A stretch of 47,923 nt of DNA, from assembly GCA_913041415.1 (NCBI GenBank), contig CAJWHS010000010.1, positions 1 to 47,923 of the forward strand. Reading direction: 5' to 3'. Under the pieces are notes generated by a model that ran no database searches, was not told the DNA's origin, and was given only the letters and a program-made list of their open reading frames with translations. Below, one piece after another: positions 28,565 through 39,049 of the stretch. Position 1 is the first letter of the stretch. Every line of letters begins with the position of its first letter. This DNA comes from an uncultured Acidimicrobiaceae bacterium. Lineage in GTDB: Bacteria > Actinomycetota > Acidimicrobiia > Acidimicrobiales > Aldehydirespiratoraceae. The position numbers and the translations under genes are program-made.

Positions 28565-30298
28565 TCACCCTCGTTCTGCAGCATCTGCCGCCTCTCGAGC
28601 GTGGTAGCTCGAGCGGGTCAGCGGACTGGCCTCAACGTGGTCGATGCCCATCGCCTCGCCCTGCTGCTTCCACTCGCCGAAAATCGACGGCGGCCACCAG
28701 GTGACGACGGGAAGATGGTGCGAGGTTGGGCGCAGGTACTGGCCGATCGTGACGATGTCGCAATCAATGGCGGCGAGGTCGGCCATGGTCTGGACGACCT
28801 CGGTATCGGTCTCGCCCATGCCGACGATGATCGACGACTTGGTGACAAGTCCCGCCTGCGCAGCCCGGGCAAGGACCGATAGCGACCGGGCGTACGACGC
28901 CGAGGGACGGACTGCCCGCTGAAGTCGGGCGACGGTCTCGATGTTGTGGTTGAAGACGTCGGGTCGGGCGTCGAAGACGACCTGCAACGACGCATCGTCG
29001 CCCTTGAAGTCCGAGACGAGCACCTCCACCCGGCAGCCCGGCACACGACCTCGGATCGCCTGGACCGTGTCGGCAACGTGCTGCGCCCCACCGTCGGCGA
29101 GATCGTCGCGGGCGACCATCGTCACGACGGCGTGGGTAAGCCCCATCCGCTCGGCCGCCTCGGCGACACGAGCCGGCTCATCCGGATCGGCTGCTGCCGG
29201 CTTGCGCGTGTCGACGTGACAGAACCCGCATGCGCGGGTGCACCGCTCCCCCAGCACCATGAACGTCGCAGTGCCGTCATTCCAGCACTCGGAGATGTTC
29301 GGACACCCCGCCTCCTCACACACGGTGACGAGATCGAGGTCGCGCATCGTCTTCTTGATCTCCCGGTACGTCGGACCCGTGTCAAGTGGGACCCGCATCC
29401 ATTCGGGTTTGCGCGCCTTCAACCGAACCGGATCGGCCGACACGCCAGCTTCGGCAAGTCGACCAAGCAACCGCACTGACGTGCCGTCGGACTGTTCGGC
29501 GAATGAGAGTTCTGGATTCACTTCGCCGTGTCCCACGCCCCGTCGCCCGACCGGCGTACCCGGGCCCTCGCCACGGGTGAAGGGCGCGAGATCAGTCGTT
29601 GGCACGCGCCACGCTATCTCGGCCCGATCGACAGGCTGACCGCCACCCCAACGCTGGGCGGCCGCAGCAGCGACGAGATCAACAACAGCGTGCATCGAGA
29701 CATCGACCCCCTCGGCGGCGAGCGAGCTAACACCCTTGTCGGTGATCCCGCAGGGCACGATGCGATCGAACCAGGAAAGGTCGGGGTCGACGTTGAGGGC
29801 GAAGCCGTGCATCGATCGCCCCTGGGTGATCCGGACGCCGATCGCTGCAATCTTGCGGGGCCGCGGCGAGTCGCAATCGACCCAGACACCGGTGCAGCGT
29901 GTAAGTCGCCCTGCCTCCACCCCGAGATCGGCGAGCACATCGATCAACACCTGTTCGATCCCGTCGATGTAGGCGGCGGTGTCGGCCATGCCGCCACCCC
30001 GCTTCCCGGGCACGGTGAGAATCGGGTAGCCCACGAGTTGACCCGGACCGTGATAGGTGATGTCTCCGCCCCGGTCCGTGTCGACGACGGCGGCGCCCAT
30101 CGCCTCGACGTCGACGAGGAGGTGGTCTCGCGGCGTGCGCCGACTCATTGTTACGACATGGTCGTGCTCGAGCAGGAGCAGGTGGTCCCTGGTCGAGTGA
30201 TCTCGCAACTGGCGCTGCAGGGCGAAGGCGTCTCGATAGTCGACTCGGCCGAGCCAGCGAACTCCAAGGCCGGTGGACGCGACATCGGGCATCTCCAT
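28565..30298 (-). CDS. Bifunctional single-chain octanoyltransferase (LipB) - lipoyl synthase (LipA) fusion
   Basis: N-terminal LipB: LLLLEHDHVVTMSRR..., DRGGDITYHGPGQLVGYPI, KIAAIGVRI (Lys), RIVPCGITDKGVSSL (Cys). C-terminal LipA: VCEEAGCPNISECWNDGTATFMVLGERCTRACGFCHVDTRKP, FNHNIETVARLQRAVRP, SSIIVGMGETDTEV, SPLTRSSYHA. One uninterrupted ORF; start at MEMPDVASTG. Confidence 0.95.
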   Translation of the reverse strand: MEMPDVASTGLGVRWLGRVDYRDAFALQRQLRDHSTRDHLLLLEHDHVVTMSRRTPRDHLLVDVEAMGAAVVDTDRGGDITYHGPGQLVGYPILTVPGKRGGGMADTAAYIDGIEQVLIDVLADLGVEAGRLTRCTGVWVDCDSPRPRKIAAIGVRITQGRSMHGFALNVDPDLSWFDRIVPCGITDKGVSSLAAEGVDVSMHAVVDLVAAAAAQRWGGGQPVDRAEIAWRVPTTDLAPFTRGEGPGTPVGRRGVGHGEVNPELSFAEQSDGTSVRLLGRLAEAGVSADPVRLKARKPEWMRVPLDTGPTYREIKKTMRDLDLVTVCEEAGCPNISECWNDGTATFMVLGERCTRACGFCHVDTRKPAAADPDEPARVAEAAERMGLTHAVVTMVARDDLADGGAQHVADTVQAIRGRVPGCRVEVLVSDFKGDDASLQVVFDARPDVFNHNIETVARLQRAVRPSASYARSLSVLARAAQAGLVTKSSIIVGMGETDTEVVQTMADLAAIDCDIVTIGQYLRPTSHHLPVVTWWPPSIFGEWKQQGEAMGIDHVEASPLTRSSYHAREAADAAERG

Positions 30299-30377
30299 GA
30301 CTCCATGATGCCGTGCCGCCGGGCTTTTCGACAGGTGCCCGATGCCGCTCACGAGTGGGGGAACGAGGCCGCCCGGA

Positions 30378-31724
30378 TCACCGAATCTCGGCTTCCCAGT
30401 CGCGCGTCTCGAGGATCTCCTGAATCCGGTTGAGGAATGCCGCGGCGTAGGCGCCATCGAAGGCCCGGTGGTCCCAGGCTAGGGCGAGCACTCCAACCGA
30501 GTGAATGGCGATCGACTCGTTCCCAAACTCGTCGGTGACGACGACCGGCTTGCGCTTCACCCCGTCGGTGCTGAGGATTGCGACCTGGGGCTGGTTGATG
30601 ATCGGGAACTGCATCATCGTGCCGTACTGCCCGGCATTGGTCAGCGTGAAGGTGCCACCGTTCAAGTCGTCGGGCGTGAGCTGCTTCGTGCGGGTGCGGC
30701 CGGCGACATCCGTGATGTCGCGGGCGATCTGCCGCAGACGCTTGCCATCGACATTCTTCACGACCGGGGCGAGCAACCCTTCGAAGTCGATGTCGACCGC
30801 AATCGCCATGTTGACTTCATCGTGCACGACCAGATGGTCGCCGCCAAAGCTGGCGTTGAGATGCGGGAAATCACGCAACGCGTCGGCAACGGCGCGGGCA
30901 ATGAACGGCAGGTAGGTCAGCGAGAAGCCCTCTTCCGCCTTCCATGCGCCCTTGTGTATCTTGCGCACCTGCTCGACCCGCTCGTAGTCAACTTCCATCG
31001 CCGTGAGGACGTGCGGCGAGGTCGACTTCGACATCACCATGTGTTCGGCGGTGCGCTTGCGAATGTTCGTGAGCGGCACAACCTGATCTCGAGCACCCAC
31101 GGCCGGAGTGGGCGCTGCAGCGACGGGCGCCGGTGCCGTGGGCGCGGCAGCGGCCGGAGCGACAGGCGCCGCAGGAGCTGGGGCGGAAGGCGCCGCAGGT
31201 TCGGGAGTCGAGCCGGCGGTGCGAGCCTGGATGATCTGCTCAACGTCGTTGCGGGTGATGCGGCCTCCTAGACCGGTGCCGGTTATCTGGCTCGCATCGA
31301 CACCGTTGTCGGCGATCAGTCGGCGCACGACCGGTGACAGGATGCTTCCGTCCGTGGGCGCCGGGACGGGTGCGTCGGTCGGACCGGGAGTCGGGGCGGG
31401 GGCGGGCTCAGGTGCCGGAACCGGTTCACGCTCGGGAAGGGCAGGCTCAGGGACGGGAGCGGCTTCGGGGGCCGCCGTCGGTGCAGCGTCGGCTTCACCG
31501 ACACGGCAGAGCACCTGGCCAACCTCGACCACGTCGCCCTCGCCAGCGAGGAGCTCGGTGACGACCCCGGTGACCGGCGACGGAACCTCGGAGTCGACCT
31601 TGTCGGTCGAGACCTCAAAAAGGATCTCGTCCATGGCGACGGCGTCACCCACGTTCTTGAACCATTGGGTGATGGTTCCTTCGGTGACGGTCTCGCCCAA
31701 CTGCGGCATGGTCACGTCGGCCAT
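30378..31724 (-). CDS. 2-oxo acid dehydrogenase E2 component, dihydrolipoyllysine-residue acyltransferase
   Basis: One lipoyl domain (FEVSTDKVDSEVPSPVTG), Ala/Pro-rich linker, peripheral-subunit-binding domain (SPVVRRLIADNGVDASQITGTGLGGRITRNDVE), catalytic domain with AWDHRAFDGAYAAAFLNRI. Confidence 0.93.
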   Translation of the reverse strand: MADVTMPQLGETVTEGTITQWFKNVGDAVAMDEILFEVSTDKVDSEVPSPVTGVVTELLAGEGDVVEVGQVLCRVGEADAAPTAAPEAAPVPEPALPEREPVPAPEPAPAPTPGPTDAPVPAPTDGSILSPVVRRLIADNGVDASQITGTGLGGRITRNDVEQIIQARTAGSTPEPAAPSAPAPAAPVAPAAAAPTAPAPVAAAPTPAVGARDQVVPLTNIRKRTAEHMVMSKSTSPHVLTAMEVDYERVEQVRKIHKGAWKAEEGFSLTYLPFIARAVADALRDFPHLNASFGGDHLVVHDEVNMAIAVDIDFEGLLAPVVKNVDGKRLRQIARDITDVAGRTRTKQLTPDDLNGGTFTLTNAGQYGTMMQFPIINQPQVAILSTDGVKRKPVVVTDEFGNESIAIHSVGVLALAWDHRAFDGAYAAAFLNRIQEILETRDWEAEIR

Positions 31725-31748: not shown

Positions 31749-33164
31749 TCAGCCGTGGAGGCCACGGCCGGTGAGCGACAGGACGGTCTCGCCGAACAGT
31801 TCGCTCATGGTCGGATGGGGCTGGATGAAGGCCGCGACATCGTCGACGGTGGCTTCCCAGTTGACGGCCAGGTAGCCCTGACCGAGCTGCTCGGTAACCC
31901 ACGGGCCCACCATGTGGACGCCGAGGATGCGGCCACCGGTGCCGTCGGGCCGCCTCTCGGCGATCACCTTCACGAGGCCTTCGGTGTCGCCGACGATCTT
32001 GGCTCGACCGTTCCCGACGAAGTGGTGCTTGGAGGACACAACATCGAAGCCGGCCTCCTTGGCGGAGGCCTCGGTGTGGCCAGCGAACGCAACTTCGGGG
32101 TTGCAGTAGATGCACCAAGGTGTGCCGTGGTGGTCAAGCGGGGTCGGCTCTTCGCCGAGAATGTCGCGTATGGCGAGCATGCCTTCGGCGAATGCCACGT
32201 GGGCGAGCTGTGGCGTGTTCACGAGATCGCCGACCGCCCACACGCCGGCTTCGGCGGTGCGACAGCGCTCATCGACCTGGACGAAGCCGCGCTCATCGAC
32301 ACCGACCGCAGTGCCCTCGAGGCCGAGTAGGTCGGCGAAGGGGCGGCGGCCGATCGACACGATGACGGTATCGACCTCGACCGACTCACCGTCGCCGAAG
32401 TGAACCGTGGTGCTCGAGCCATCGGGCTTCGGCGTGTGGCCGTTGACCATCACGCCCGTACGGGCCGTGATGCCACGCTTCGTGAACGATCGCTCGACGA
32501 CCTTGGCGGCGTCGGCATCGCAGCCGTTGAGAATCTGGGGCAGAGCCTCGAGGATCGTGACCTTGGTGCCTAGGTCGCCCATCATCGACGCGAACTCGCA
32601 GCCGATCGCCCCACCGCCGATGACGACGGCAGATCCTGGAAGCTTCGGCATCGAGAGGACTTCGTCGGAGGTCATGACGACCGAACCGTCGACGTCGAAG
32701 CCGGGGATCGAACGGGTCGCCGAACCAGCGGCGAGGACCACCGCCTGGCCTTGCAGGGTGAGTTCTCCGGACTCGCCTCCGCTTACGGTGACGGTGCGGT
32801 CAACGCCAAGCGAGCCCTTGCCGTTGTACACCGTGACCTTGCGCTGTTTGAGCAGACCCGAGAGACCGCCCACCAGTTGGTCGATGATCGACTGTTTGCG
32901 GGTGAGTGTCGTGCCCCACTCGATGGTCGGCGCCGAGGCCTGGACTCCGAAGTCGGCGGCGTGACCGACCGTGCGGAACACATGGGCCGTCTCGAGGAGT
33001 TCCTTGGCGGGAATGCATCCGACGTTCAGGCAGGTGCCACCTAGGGCGCGGTATTCGATCAGCCCGATGTCGAGCCCGATCCCTGCGCCGTAGAGGGCCG
33101 CGGCGTAGCCGCCGGGGCCTCCGCCGATCACGATGACGTCGTGGTGTGCGTCCGTCGCACTCAC
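31749..33164 (-). CDS. lpd: Dihydrolipoyl dehydrogenase (E3)
   Basis: VIVIGGGPGGYAAALYGAGIGLDIGLIEYRALGGTCLNVGCIPAKELLETA; C-terminal HPTMSELFGE. Confidence 0.95.
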   Translation of the reverse strand: MSATDAHHDVIVIGGGPGGYAAALYGAGIGLDIGLIEYRALGGTCLNVGCIPAKELLETAHVFRTVGHAADFGVQASAPTIEWGTTLTRKQSIIDQLVGGLSGLLKQRKVTVYNGKGSLGVDRTVTVSGGESGELTLQGQAVVLAAGSATRSIPGFDVDGSVVMTSDEVLSMPKLPGSAVVIGGGAIGCEFASMMGDLGTKVTILEALPQILNGCDADAAKVVERSFTKRGITARTGVMVNGHTPKPDGSSTTVHFGDGESVEVDTVIVSIGRRPFADLLGLEGTAVGVDERGFVQVDERCRTAEAGVWAVGDLVNTPQLAHVAFAEGMLAIRDILGEEPTPLDHHGTPWCIYCNPEVAFAGHTEASAKEAGFDVVSSKHHFVGNGRAKIVGDTEGLVKVIAERRPDGTGGRILGVHMVGPWVTEQLGQGYLAVNWEATVDDVAAFIQPHPTMSELFGETVLSLTGRGLHG

Positions 33165-33195: not shown

Positions 33196-33288
33196 TCACG
33201 AGATGATCTGATAGAGCTGAAAGGCAGATGCAAGCAGGATCGCCATCCCGCAAAGCGCCGAAAGCAGTAACAGTTTTCGGGTACTCAC
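33196..33288 (-). CDS. Possible 30-aa single-TM small protein
   Basis: GTG start: VSTRKLLLLSALCGMAILLASAFQLYQIIS*, preceded by TTGGAGGAGCGAGACTC (SD-like GGAGG). No similarity evidence. Confidence 0.35.
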   Translation of the reverse strand: MSTRKLLLLSALCGMAILLASAFQLYQIIS

Positions 33289-33370: not shown

Positions 33371-33898
33371 ATGAACCGCACCAGGGTCCTAGTCACGAGT
33401 TTGACGTCTGTCGTCGCCCTTCTCGCCGTGGCATGTGCCGGCGATGACTCGTCCCCTGCCGAAAGCAGCGCACCTGACACGGTCGACGCCGAGTGGCCCC
33501 ATAACTTCGTCGAGGAGACCATCGGTGGCGGTCTCATCGACTTAAACAATCTCGAAGGTCAGGACGTTATCTTGTGGTTCTGGGCGCCGTGGTGAGCAAC
33601 GTGTCGCCGTGAAGCGGGTGCGGTCGCATCCGTGCAGAATCAGTTTGAGGGCCGGGCTCGGATCATCGGTGTCGCCAGCCGCGACAGTGTCGAGCAGATG
33701 GAAGCCTTTGTCGCCGACACCGGCGTCGACACCTTTCCCCACGCCGCCGACATCGACGGTGACGTCTGGGAGTTCTTCGGAATCGGCAGCCAACCGGCGT
33801 TCGTCTTCATCAACGGCGACGGCACGTTCGACACTCGGCTCGGTTCGCTCGACGAAGACGGACTCACCGAACGGGTCGAACAACTCCTCGCTTTCTAA
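33371..33898 (+). CDS. Candidate selenoprotein: DsbE/MPT53-like thioredoxin-fold lipoprotein, in-frame TGA (33593-33595) read as Sec75
   Basis: Continuous frame apart from one TGA: MNRTRVLVTSLTSVVALLAVACAGDDSS...GQDVILWFWAPW[TGA]ATCRREAGAVASVQNQFEGRARIIGVASRDSVEQMEAFVADTGVDTFPHAADIDGDVWEFFGIGSQPAFVFINGDGTFDTRLGSLDEDGLTERVEQLLAF*. The TGA is at the first Cys position of the WAPWCxxC thioredoxin motif; cis-Pro region SQPAFVF; lipobox-like LAVAC. The ORF track splits it into 33308..33595 and 33632..33898, both in the same frame. Confidence 0.85.
33593..33632 (+). promoter_or_regulatory. Candidate bacterial SECIS element following the in-frame TGA
   Basis: UGA-(19 nt)-CGGGUGC-GGUC-GCAUCCG: 7-bp stem (one G.U) 33615-33621/33626-33632 with GGUC apical loop at 33622-33625, i.e. 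27 nt after the UGA; a GGUC loop is the hallmark of the E. coli fdhF SECIS. Confidence 0.75.
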
Positions 33899-34292: not shown

Positions 34293-35192
34293 ATGCGTGT
34301 TCTAATCTCTGGCTCCACCGGCTTCATCGGCACGGCGCTCGTCAAACGTCTTCTTGAGCTGGGCCATGAACCCGTTCGACTCGTCCGGTCCACACCGCCG
34401 GACGACGTGCCGTCGGTCCGCTGGGACCCAGCTGCGGAGACGACCGACGACGGTGCGCTCGACAACATCGATGCCGTCGTTCACCTCGCCGGCGAGTCGA
34501 TCGCCTCGTCGCGGTGGACCGACGCGCAGAAGGCCCGGATCATGGATTCACGGGTGAAGGGAACCCGTACGCTCGCCAAGGCGATGGCCGCCGCCGAGAA
34601 TCCGCCGGCGATTTTCCTGAGCGGCTCGGCGATCGGCTACTACGGCGATACCGACGATCGGCACATCACCGAGGAGAGCCCAGCGGCCGACGACTTCGCC
34701 GCACTGGTCACGATCGAATGGGAGAAGGAGGCGGCTCCGATCGCCACAACCCGCACTCGCCTCGCCTTCCTGCGCACCGGCATAGTGCTCGACCCCTCGG
34801 GTGGCGCGCTTAAGGAGCAGCTGCCATTCTTCAAGCTCGGCATCGGTGGCCGTATCGGTGACGGCACACAGTGGTTGAGCTGGATATCTCTCGGCGATGA
34901 GGTCGGCGCCATCATCCACCTGCTCGAGAACGACGTGTCCGGCCCGGTCAACCTCACCGCCCCCAACCCAGTCACCAACGGTGCGTTCACCAAGGCGCTT
35001 GGCCGGGTACTTGGTCGCCCCACCCTGCTGCCCACACCCACCCCTGCGCTCTACCTCCGGCTCGGCAAGGAACTCGCACGGACCCTCCTGCTCGGTGGAT
35101 CGCGCGTGTCACCCACCGTGCTCGAAGCGAGCGGCTACGAGTTCACCGACCCGGAGTTGAAGCATGCGCTGCAGCGCATGCTCAAGGGCTGA
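34293..35192 (+). CDS. TIGR01777/YfcH-type NAD(P)-binding epimerase-like protein
   Basis: MRVLISGSTGFIGTALVKRLLELGHEPVRLVR...GAVVHLAGESIASSRWT-type motif, FLSGSAIGYYGD, FFKLGIGGRIGDGTQWLSWISLGDEV. Confidence 0.9.
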   Translation: MRVLISGSTGFIGTALVKRLLELGHEPVRLVRSTPPDDVPSVRWDPAAETTDDGALDNIDAVVHLAGESIASSRWTDAQKARIMDSRVKGTRTLAKAMAAAENPPAIFLSGSAIGYYGDTDDRHITEESPAADDFAALVTIEWEKEAAPIATTRTRLAFLRTGIVLDPSGGALKEQLPFFKLGIGGRIGDGTQWLSWISLGDEVGAIIHLLENDVSGPVNLTAPNPVTNGAFTKALGRVLGRPTLLPTPTPALYLRLGKELARTLLLGGSRVSPTVLEASGYEFTDPELKHALQRMLKG

Positions 35193-36252
35193 TGATCCAG
35201 ACGTCGTTGGGCAGCACCTGTTCGAGCGCCTGCACGATCTTGCCGATTCGCGGTTCATCGTGGTCCCACACCACGATCGCTTCCGTGGCGATCTTGCGTA
35301 GCCAGCCGTTTCGACGGTCCAGCGCCTGACCAGCCGCCCGGTTGTCGGCCGGCACCTTCTTTTCGAGCCGCACGATTGCACTAGCTTCGGCGAGCAACTC
35401 GTGAAAGCGCCGTTGCGTCGCAGCAGGCCAGTTGATTTCCGGGTCAGGGAACGGAAGCACGGCAACGAATGGCACCTCCGCCTCTGATGCTGCTTCCGCT
35501 GCGAGGGTCTCGGCACCGAGGCGGAGGCCGGTCACGACGACAAGATCCGGATAAAGCTCCGCCTTGGCCCCGAGGATTTCAGTGATCTGGCGGCGGACCT
35601 CGTCGGCGACCGGGTTGGGGTCGTAGCCACCGAGCTGCGGCGGCTGGACCCCCGTGATGAGGATTGCCGGACCGGTCGGCACCCACGAGGACGAGTACAC
35701 GCCGTCGGGCCCCGGCTGCGGCGCGGCCGCCGGAACGGATCCACCTGCGTCGATCTCGTCAGGTGGGCCGAGATCGTCAGGCGTGCCGACGCCATGGCGT
35801 CCCTGACCGGTGTGTGATGCCTCCACCGCCAAGCGATCGGCGATGTCGTTGTACTCGTCACCGGCGTGACCTTTGACCCACGTAAACGTGATCTCCGCCT
35901 CGCGTGAGCGGTAGAGGCCGATGAGCGGCTCCCAGATGTCGCGGTTGGCGACCGGTTCCTTCTTCGAGTTCTTCCAGCCCCGCTTCAGCCAGCCTTTCCA
36001 CCAGCCGTCGCGGAAGCAGTTGACGACATAGGTCGAATCTGAGACGACCTCGACCGAACCCTCGATCCTGCGCAGTGCATCGAGGGCCGCCATCAACTCC
36101 ATGCGCTGATTCGTCGTGTCGGGATCGAAGCCATTGGCCCAGGGACCTTCAGGCACAACCCAACCCCAGCCGCCAGGACCGGGGTTCCCTCTGCACGCCC
36201 CGTCGGTATACACGACCGTGCGATCTGCGTCACCTGTCACAGGGCTGACCAT
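35182..36252 (-). CDS. Ribonuclease HI fused to a C-terminal SLOG/YpsA-like domain
   Basis: RNase HI: VVYTDGACRGNPGPGGWGWVV...NQRMELMAALDAL...VVSDSTYVVN...WVKGHAGDEYNDIADRLA. After a low-complexity linker: AILITGVQPPQLGGYDPNPVADEVRRQITEIL...DLVVVTGLRLGAETLAAEAASEAEVPFVAVLPFPDPEINWPAATQRRFHELLAEASAIVRL, resembling B. subtilis YpsA. Start at MVSPVTGDAD. Confidence 0.88.
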   Translation of the reverse strand: MVSPVTGDADRTVVYTDGACRGNPGPGGWGWVVPEGPWANGFDPDTTNQRMELMAALDALRRIEGSVEVVSDSTYVVNCFRDGWWKGWLKRGWKNSKKEPVANRDIWEPLIGLYRSREAEITFTWVKGHAGDEYNDIADRLAVEASHTGQGRHGVGTPDDLGPPDEIDAGGSVPAAAPQPGPDGVYSSSWVPTGPAILITGVQPPQLGGYDPNPVADEVRRQITEILGAKAELYPDLVVVTGLRLGAETLAAEAASEAEVPFVAVLPFPDPEINWPAATQRRFHELLAEASAIVRLEKKVPADNRAAGQALDRRNGWLRKIATEAIVVWDHDEPRIGKIVQALEQVLPNDVWIISP

Positions 36253-36301
36253 ACCCGCTGCTAATCGACCGATTCGCGTCCGGACAACGATCGACCCTGC
36301 G

Positions 36302-39049
36302 ATGATTGAGACCATGCTCGACCATTTCGCGCGACAGCTCCCCGACATCGACCCAGCCGAGACGAAGGAGTGGATCGACTCGCTCGATGCGGTCGTCGCT
36401 GCTCAGGGCACCCCCCGTGCTCGCTACATCATGGCGAAACTGCTGGAGCGGGCCAATGAACTACAGGTCGGCGTTCCCCCGACCACCTCGACCCCCTACA
36501 TCAACACGATCCCGGCGGAGAACCAGCCGTTCTTCCCCGGCAACGAGGACATCGAGCGCCGTATCCGGGCGTTCATCCGCTGGAACGCCGCAGCGATGGT
36601 GATCCGTGCCAACAAGTCCGCCGATGGCATCGGCGGCCATCTCTCCACCTTCGCGTCGTCCGCCGCGCTCTACGAGGTCGGTTTCAACCACTTCTTCAAG
36701 GGGAAGGACACCGGCCTCGCTGGCGACCACGTCTACTACCAGGGCCACGCCGCCCCAGGTGTCTACGCCCGCTCGTACCTCGAAGGTCGCCTCACCGAAC
36801 AGAACCTCGACCATTTCCGTATGGAGATCGGCGGCACCGGGCTGTCGAGCTACCCACATCCTCGGCTCATGCCGCACTTCTGGGAGTACCCGACGGTGTC
36901 GATGGGCCTCGGTCCGATCAACTCGATCTACCACGCCCGCTTCAACAAGTACCTCCACAATCGCCGGCTCGAGGACACCAGCCCGAGCCAGATCTGGTCG
37001 TTCTTGGGCGACGGCGAATGTGACGAGCCCGAGACCCTCGGCGCCATCGCCCTCGCCGGCCGTTCCGACCTTGGCAACCTCAACTGGGTCATCAACTGCA
37101 ACCTGCAACGCCTCGACGGCCCGGTTCGCGGCAACGGCAAGATCATCCAGGAACTCGAAGGCGTGTTCCGCGGGGCCGGGTGGAACGTCATCAAGGTCGT
37201 GTGGGGCTCGGCATGGGATGAGTTGCTCCATCGCGACGTCGACGGTGTGCTCCTCAACAAGATGAACACCACGGTCGATGGCGAGTACCAGCGTTACGCG
37301 ACCGAGAACGGCGCCTACATCCGCGAACACTTCTTCGGGCCCGATCCTCGCCTTCGCAAGTTGGTCAGCCATCTCTCCGACCGCGACATCGAGAACCTTC
37401 CGCGAGGCGGGCACGACTACCAGAAGGTCTACGCCGCATTCAAGGCTGCAGCAGAGACCACCGACATGCCCTCGGTCATCCTTGCAAAGACGGTGAAGGG
37501 CTGGACGCTGGGCGAGGGTTTCGAGGGCCGTAACGCCACCCACCAGATCAAGAAGATGACCAAGAACCAGCTGCTCGAACTCCGAGAGCGGCTGCACATG
37601 GGGGACGAGATCCCCGAGGAAAGCCTCGAAGACGGTATTCCGCCGTACTTCCGCCCCTCAACGGACTCCGAGGAGCACCAGTACATGACCCAGCGGCGCC
37701 GGGCGCTCCACGGCTTCATCCCGAAGCGCGTCGTCCGCGATCGTCGCCCGCTCGCCGCCCCGTCCGTAACGCCGTTCCTCGAGCTGCAGAAGGGTTCGTC
37801 AGGCCGCGAGGTCTCCACGACGATGGCGTTCACCTCCCTGCTGCGGGACCTCCTCCGCGACCAGGAGTTCGGCGATCGTGTCGTGCCGATCGTGCCCGAT
37901 GAGGCCCGGACCTTCGGTATGGATTCGCTGTTTCGCGAGTTCAAGATCTACGCACCGCGCGGCCAGCTGTACGAGCCGGTCGACCACGACCTGTTGCTGT
38001 CCTACACCGAGGCGCTCGATGGGCAGTTGCTCGAGGAGGGCATCACCGAGGCTGGTTCGATGGCGTCGTGGATCGCCGCCGGCACCAGCTACGCGAACAC
38101 CGGCGTGCCGATGGTGCCCTTCTACACCTTTTATTCGATGTTCGGCTTCCAGCGCATCGGCGACCTCGCCTGGCTGGCCGCCGACGCCCGCACCCGAGGC
38201 TTCCTGATGGGGGCCACGGCGGGCCGGACCACGCTGATGGGCGAAGGCCTTCAGCACCAGGACGGTCACAGCCTTCTGCTCGCCTCGACCATTCCGGCGT
38301 GTGAGGCCTACGACCCAGCGTTCGCCTTCGAACTCGGGGCGATCATCGAAGAGGGCCTCGATCGGATGTACCCCGACGGATCGATCGACGGTGAAGACGT
38401 TTTCTATTACATCACCGTCTACAACGAGAACTACGAGCAGCCGCCGCGGCCCGACCATGTCGACAACCGCGACATCACCTCAGGTCTGTACAAGTTCGAT
38501 GATGGCCCTGACCTTGGTGACGATGCACACAAAGCAACCATCTTATTCTCCGGTCCGTCGTTCCTCGCCGCCAAGGAGGCCCAGACCATCCTGGCCGAGC
38601 AGCACAACGTGGCCGTCGAGTTGTGGAGCGTCACCTCCTACAAGCGCCTCCGAGAGGACGCCATCAACGTCCAGCGACGGAACCGGCTCAACCCGCTCGG
38701 GGAGCGTCTCGTCCCGATGGTCACGTCCAAGCTGCAGGACAGCGAGGGGCCGATCATCGCCGTATCGGACTGGATGGCCAGTGTGGTCGGCCAGATCAAC
38801 CGCTGGACCCCTCGCCCGATGTCAGTGCTCGGCACCGACGGCTTCGGTCGGTCCGACACTCGGGAGGCACTGCGGTCATTCTTTGAGGTCGACGCCGCCC
38901 ACGTTGTAGTCACGGTGCTCAACGCGCTTGCGCGAGACGGGGAAATCGGACGCGAGGTCGTCGCCGACGCCATCACGACGTTCGGTATCGACCCGAACCG
39001 CCCCGACCCGGCCCACCCCAACACGGGTGCAACCGGGATCGGCCGGTAA
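36302..39049 (+). CDS. aceE: Pyruvate dehydrogenase E1 component (homodimeric AceE type)
   Basis: [102 protein letters not shown]; strongly diagnostic. Confidence 0.97.

Follow-up and report, generated by a model that had tools for sequence, protein, structure and literature searches.

An in-frame UGA probably read as selenocysteine in a DsbE/DsbF-type lipoprotein gene of an Acidimicrobiales bacterium

The window, that is, the whole stretch of DNA analyzed here, comprises 47,923 nucleotides of contig CAJWHS010000010.1 from an uncultured Acidimicrobiaceae bacterium (GCA_913041415.1). The source assembly (2.68 Mb, 97% complete) belongs to the Acidimicrobiales; among named relatives, an Acidimicrobiaceae MAG (L053) is the nearest, at 90% identity. 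On the plus strand, one reading frame at 33371-33898 was interrupted by a single in-frame TGA at 33593-33595, corresponding to residue 75 of 175; standard ORF calling splits the gene into two at this codon. Translation across the TGA gave again the 175-aa protein that the initial annotation had obtained by joining two same-frame ORFs (MNRTRV...LAVACAGDD...WFWAPW[TGA]ATCRREAG...SQPAFVF...LLAF-stop), including the thioredoxin active-site context FWAPW[TGA]ATCRREAG and the cis-Pro segment named there. The following features were recognized at the locus.

31749-33164, minus strand: lpd (dihydrolipoamide dehydrogenase), a divergent neighbour whose place next to the selenoprotein gene is conserved in many relatives
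33196-33288, minus strand: conserved 30-aa membrane microprotein ORF (VSTRKLLLLSALCGMAILLASAFQLYQIIS), a divergent neighbour upstream of lpd
33371-33898, plus strand: CDS of the putative Sec-containing DsbE/DsbF-like lipoprotein, 175 aa, stop TAA
33371-33442, plus strand: lipoprotein-type signal peptide predicted from the translation, with a candidate lipobox (...LAVA-C) and lipidation Cys
33593-33595, plus strand: in-frame UGA, putatively read as selenocysteine (U75), the first residue of the U-A-T-C active site
33602-33604, plus strand: resolving Cys C78 (TGT) of the UxxC motif; Cys in 94 of the 95 aligned stretches from the order and U in one
33614-33633, plus strand: SECIS-like hairpin 26 nt after the UGA, with an 8-bp stem (33614-33621/33626-33633) and the apical loop GGUC (33622-33625)
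33788-33808, plus strand: SQPAFVF segment with the cis-Pro (P142) of the thioredoxin fold, aligned with QQPAYAF of DsbF

In the read-through product, the predicted signal peptide with its lipobox-like LAVA-C would be followed by a spacer and then by a thioredoxin domain containing LWFWAPW-U-ATC-RREAG and SQPAFVF. The translated sequence points to export and lipidation of the protein, and a Cys near the lipobox position was found in many homologues in the alignment. The joined reading of 33371-33898 held, but its start was less secure: two same-genus genomes had Pro or Thr at the position of ATG 33371, and the upstream ATG 33335 and GTG 33365 kept their reading in same-genus genomes. Because ATG 33371 was not conserved, translation may actually begin at ATG 33335 or GTG 33365.

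The microprotein encoded between lpd and the selenoprotein gene is a single helix with a Cys in the helix. Its relatives were present in 90 of 149 genomes of the same order, mostly directly upstream of lpd, and to our knowledge it has no name. A partnership of the microprotein with the selenoprotein was considered, and was weakened by the finding that the microprotein also occurs with lpd in genomes lacking the selenoprotein. Domain combinations were also noted in two further ORFs on the minus strand. The 630-aa ORF at 28565-30457, adjoining E2 and lpd, is a LipB-LipA fusion, in which a lipoyl synthase domain (LIAS_N and radical SAM) is joined with a PF21948 lipoyl ligase/octanoyltransferase domain. 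The ORF at 35182-36348 combined in one protein an RNase H domain and a weak SLOG-like (YpsA) match at the C-terminus.

The best Pfam match of the joined protein was PF00578 (AhpC-TSA; 6.4e-15), and the closest solved proteins were M. tuberculosis DsbF (3ios; 3.6e-26) and MPT53/DsbE (1lu4; 9.7e-20), both of which have Cys at the position of the TGA, as expected from the earlier proposal that the TGA stands for the first Cys of a CxxC motif. The AlphaFold model (pLDDT 84.5) matched DsbF (3ios) best among PDB entries, with an rmsd of 1.0 Å, and the folds closest to the model were DsbF, DsbE, and ResA. The protein showed the features of the Gram-positive DsbE/DsbF (MPT53) type, namely a single thioredoxin domain, an N-terminal beta-hairpin region, WxPWCxxC with Sec in place of the first Cys, and the cis-Pro. 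When the candidate was searched against NCBIfam, no family scored above its cut-off.

Homologues were found in 68 of 149 same-order genomes at a cut-off of 1e-15, and three other same-genus genomes gave no match at 1e-15. Alignment of 95 homologous stretches from the order at residue 75 yielded both kinds of relative that the initial annotation had looked to: 20 had C..C and 75 had TGA, as U..C (74 stretches) or U..U (one stretch). In every one of the 75 stretches with a TGA, this codon lay on the identical alignment column, which excluded chance, and it was flanked on both sides by conserved sequence. In a wider genome collection, searched with Cys-coded motif patterns and so biased towards Cys forms, 80 of 81 loci had Cys at the UGA column, the remaining one being the Acidimicrobiaceae MAG named above; in a further phylum-wide sample, UGA forms also occurred outside the Acidimicrobiales. 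On a tree built from few columns, with many forks unresolved, the Sec and Cys labels needed seven changes. In-frame TAG codons in a few homologues, considered as possible UAG-coded Sec, were end-of-gene stops. In another arrangement, seen in a same-genus genome (L199, G008:C57), lpd and the microprotein were kept and the selenoprotein gene was absent beside them, which suggests loss of that gene.

A DsbE gene inactivated by a nonsense mutation, or a TGC or TGT miscalled as TGA, would also explain why ORF calling splits the gene, and a single stop is easily mistaken for a mutation. However, the TGA occupied the same column in 75 of the 95 stretches, and a base-call error was untenable because separate same-genus assemblies with 86-90% identity carried the identical TGA. 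Moreover, dN/dS after the UGA was 0.10-0.34 in six same-genus pairs, and purifying selection thus persists downstream of it. The homologues alternated between Sec and Cys at one column with no sign of frame decay, as the initial annotation had anticipated for a functional gene. The conserved column and the downstream constraint effectively excluded a pseudogene or sequencing error, which we regard as highly improbable.

A genome-wide reassignment of UGA to Trp, Gly, or Cys would likewise keep the frame open. However, UGA terminated six of seven Pfam-verified neighbouring genes, in agreement with the earlier remark that TGA is an ordinary stop elsewhere in the window, and this indicated that the codon was not globally reassigned. 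Homologues without the TGA had Cys at this position rather than Trp or Gly, and the genome possessed a full Sec system with a UCA tRNA-Sec; we give a genome-wide reassignment still less credence than a pseudogene. The source genome was searched for selA, selB, selD, and tRNA-Sec (selC), as foreseen in the initial annotation, and all four were found. The tRNA-Sec with anticodon UCA scored 64 bits against a cut-off of 47, and selB, above its cut-off, overlapped the end of selA, which was recognized by its reading frame and its position adjoining selB, not by family search. The selenocysteine-type selD had its own in-frame UGA, in HGAGUGCK, followed by a GGUC-loop hairpin similar to that of the candidate. 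The same genome contained a second UGA-containing thioredoxin-fold gene (L020, G000:C15:19412-19747 region) with the motif SSW-U-GC; its best NCBIfam match was the ResA-like WAxxUGC family NF041054, at 163 bits and below the cut-off of 300.

Across the order, tRNA-Sec was detected in 54 of 56 genomes with the UGA form, and the other two had selB (Fisher p = 3e-9, a value that treats related genomes as independent). Of seven genomes in which the same WFWAP motif occurred in a Cys version, four were without a detected tRNA-Sec. There were also 49 genomes with tRNA-Sec but no UGA-form match, and the candidate gene is therefore not the sole reason for keeping the Sec system.

The UGA and its UxxC context had been correctly listed in the initial annotation as selenoprotein features, but the SECIS-like hairpin at 33614-33633 had been left unmentioned. 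In the bacterial SECIS model, the loop lies 16-37 nt after the UGA, a G is present in the first two loop positions, and the stem has 4-16 bp (PMC13188914 Fig 2); our test also applied an energy rule of at or below -7.5 kcal/mol. The window hairpin conformed to this model in its spacing (26 nt), loop (GGUC), stem (8 bp), and energy (-12.0 kcal/mol). Perfect-stem G-loop hairpins within the bacterial SECIS range and at or below -7.5 kcal/mol were found in 37 of 71 UGA genes, 7 of 100 Cys genes, and 57 of 438 control positions, about half of the UGA genes failing the perfect-stem energy rule. GGUC at positions +27 to +30, giving exactly the 26-nt spacing, was present in 61 of 71 UGA genes versus 10 of 100 Cys genes. 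The loop Val codon was GUC in all 66 Val-bearing UGA genes (background 0.49).

We also examined covariation in the stem using 48 distinct sequences and 1000 shuffles. Paired stem cells amounted to 81%, against a shuffle maximum of 71%, and double-changed stem cells numbered 51, against a shuffle maximum of 27. The shuffles ignore relatedness, which is accounted for by slid-register controls, and the slid registers of the stem paired far less. Stem pair 24-33, which joins two synonymous third codon positions, was seen as U-A, C-G, and G-C; pair 22-35 was poorly kept. Single-sequence folding after the UGA was no more stable than in shuffles (z between -1.15 and 0.56), as expected for GC-rich DNA, and the SECIS claim therefore rests on comparison and not on stability. 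An Rfam scan of the window gave no match. Judged by this comparison, the putative covarying hairpin adds direct RNA-level evidence for the selenoprotein reading, and its presence downstream of the UGA also argues against a pseudogene or sequencing error.

Taking the machinery, the Sec/Cys column, and the covarying hairpin together, we conclude with high confidence that 33371-33898 encodes a Sec-containing thiol-disulfide oxidoreductase of the DsbE/DsbF (MPT53) type, the identity of residue 75 as Sec being read from the sequence. The earlier view that the UGA is decoded as Sec in a probably extracytoplasmic oxidoreductase is thereby supported; the confidence extends to the selenoprotein reading and not to the direction of electron flow. 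We propose that SelB with Sec-tRNA(UCA) would read the UGA at 33593-33595, directed by the GGUC-loop SECIS hairpin 26 nt downstream, and that the ribosome would continue past the UGA to give a lipoprotein of 175 aa or slightly longer. This lipoprotein would be exported and lipid-anchored outside the membrane, where U75-x-x-C78 would work as a selenenylsulfide/selenol-thiol couple. Its main role may be the rapid delivery of electrons for reduction or repair, with a CcdA-type membrane protein as their source.

This electron-delivering role is the weakest point of the explanation, and we lean towards it only slightly. The lean came from the results that VKOR was not found in the source genome, in a search directed at VKOR, and that one CcdA/DsbD-family protein was present, although this protein adjoined a different, Cys-type thioredoxin. 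Sec mostly speeds reductive chemistry, and all three points argue against the serious rival that the selenoprotein is an oxidant of exported proteins, which we consider rather unlikely. That rival draws on the closest relatives by sequence and fold: in vitro, M. tuberculosis DsbF and DsbE act as oxidants in the folding of hirudin and show no reduction of insulin (PMC3853704). The usual re-oxidant in Actinobacteria, where it is used in place of DsbB, is VKOR (PMC12421883). The selenoprotein might instead be an envelope peroxidase or a methionine/cysteine-sulfenate repair partner, a role that would suit the best Pfam match to the AhpC-TSA family and the fast peroxide chemistry that Sec provides. 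The closeness of the fold to DsbF, DsbE, and ResA speaks against this role, and its motif, WUxxC, is that of disulfide oxidoreductases, the peroxiredoxin motif being TxxU (PMC13188914); we consider a peroxidase or such a repair partner improbable.

A catalogue from 2026 lists 119 prokaryotic selenoprotein families (PMC13188914), among them the UxxC entries 'Thiol-disulfide isomerase-like protein' (cd02966), 'Prx-like thiol:disulfide oxidoreductase' (PF00578), and 'Redoxin family protein' (PF08534) (PMC13188914 Table 1). The words Actinobacteria, Actinomycetota, and Acidimicrobiia are absent from the text of this catalogue, which also leaves the Acidimicrobiales unnamed and gives no DsbE/DsbF-type or actinobacterial example. 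A study from 2006 reported 12 selenoprotein families in Actinobacteria, with Symbiobacterium as the richest example (PMC1794560). In the open-licence literature, we found nothing on point for Acidimicrobiia with selenocysteine or selenoprotein, or for DsbE with selenocysteine. The description of the gene as a candidate new selenoprotein was accordingly narrowed: the catalogue already covers UxxC selenoproteins of three kinds (TlpA-like cd02966, PF00578, and PF08534), and what appears to be unlisted is the DsbE/DsbF-type subfamily with its broad occurrence in the Acidimicrobiales. This subfamily, its wide distribution, and its UxxU paralogue seem undescribed in the open-licence papers searched; as judged from the catalogue descriptions, some members may already be filed under the broad names.

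The paralogue in question (L146, G126:C190:7143-7544) has two in-frame TGAs, giving WFWAPW-U-PF-U-RRES, and after them one perfect GGUC hairpin within SECIS range of both UGAs; the UxxU motif is possibly a diselenide active site. Up to five homologous genes were found in one genome. We consider it fairly probable that the Sec DsbE/DsbF lipoproteins form an old, common, and unnamed family of the Actinomycetota, above all of the Acidimicrobiales, with several Sec/Cys switches, an expansion of paralogues, and a UxxU version. If so, the family would partly account for the retention of the Sec system in these bacteria and would represent a selenium-dependent envelope redox pathway. Selenium chemistry would then take place on the outer side of the membrane in a lineage on which the 2026 catalogue is silent. 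Since standard gene callers end the gene at this codon, many actinobacterial annotations may lack the enzyme or show it truncated, and the nearly invariant GGUC loop at its fixed 26-nt spacing offers a simple handle for finding more members. With Sec and Cys versions both occurring in nature, the contribution of Sec to a DsbE-type enzyme can be tested directly.

The candidate shares the broad fold and the UxxC motif with the catalogued cd02966, PF00578, and PF08534 selenoproteins, which are named by broad domains; its motif and fold class fit the cd02966 entry, and both this fit and the distinction from the catalogued entries are judged from the catalogue's descriptions. With the ResA-like WAxxUGC selenoproteins of NF041054 it shares a TlpA/ResA-like thioredoxin fold with Sec, but these are longer and have the motif UGC, whereas the candidate has UATC and scored 32.9 bits against a cut-off of 300. 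The Gram-negative-type DsbE/CcmG family (TIGR00385) and ResA likewise have a thioredoxin fold, one CxxC, and an extracytoplasmic location, which is predicted for the candidate; the candidate has Sec and fell below the curated cut-offs of both (56 versus 170 for ResA and 32.6 versus 123.15 bits for TIGR00385). The closest known systems are M. tuberculosis DsbF (Rv1677, 3ios) and DsbE/MPT53 (Rv2878c, 1lu4), with which it shares the thioredoxin fold (rmsd 1.0 and 1.5 Å, respectively), the cis-Pro, the LWFWxPWCxxC active site, and probably export. They differ in having Cys where the candidate has UGA/Sec, and their identity with the candidate in the structural alignment is approximately 40 and 33%, respectively.
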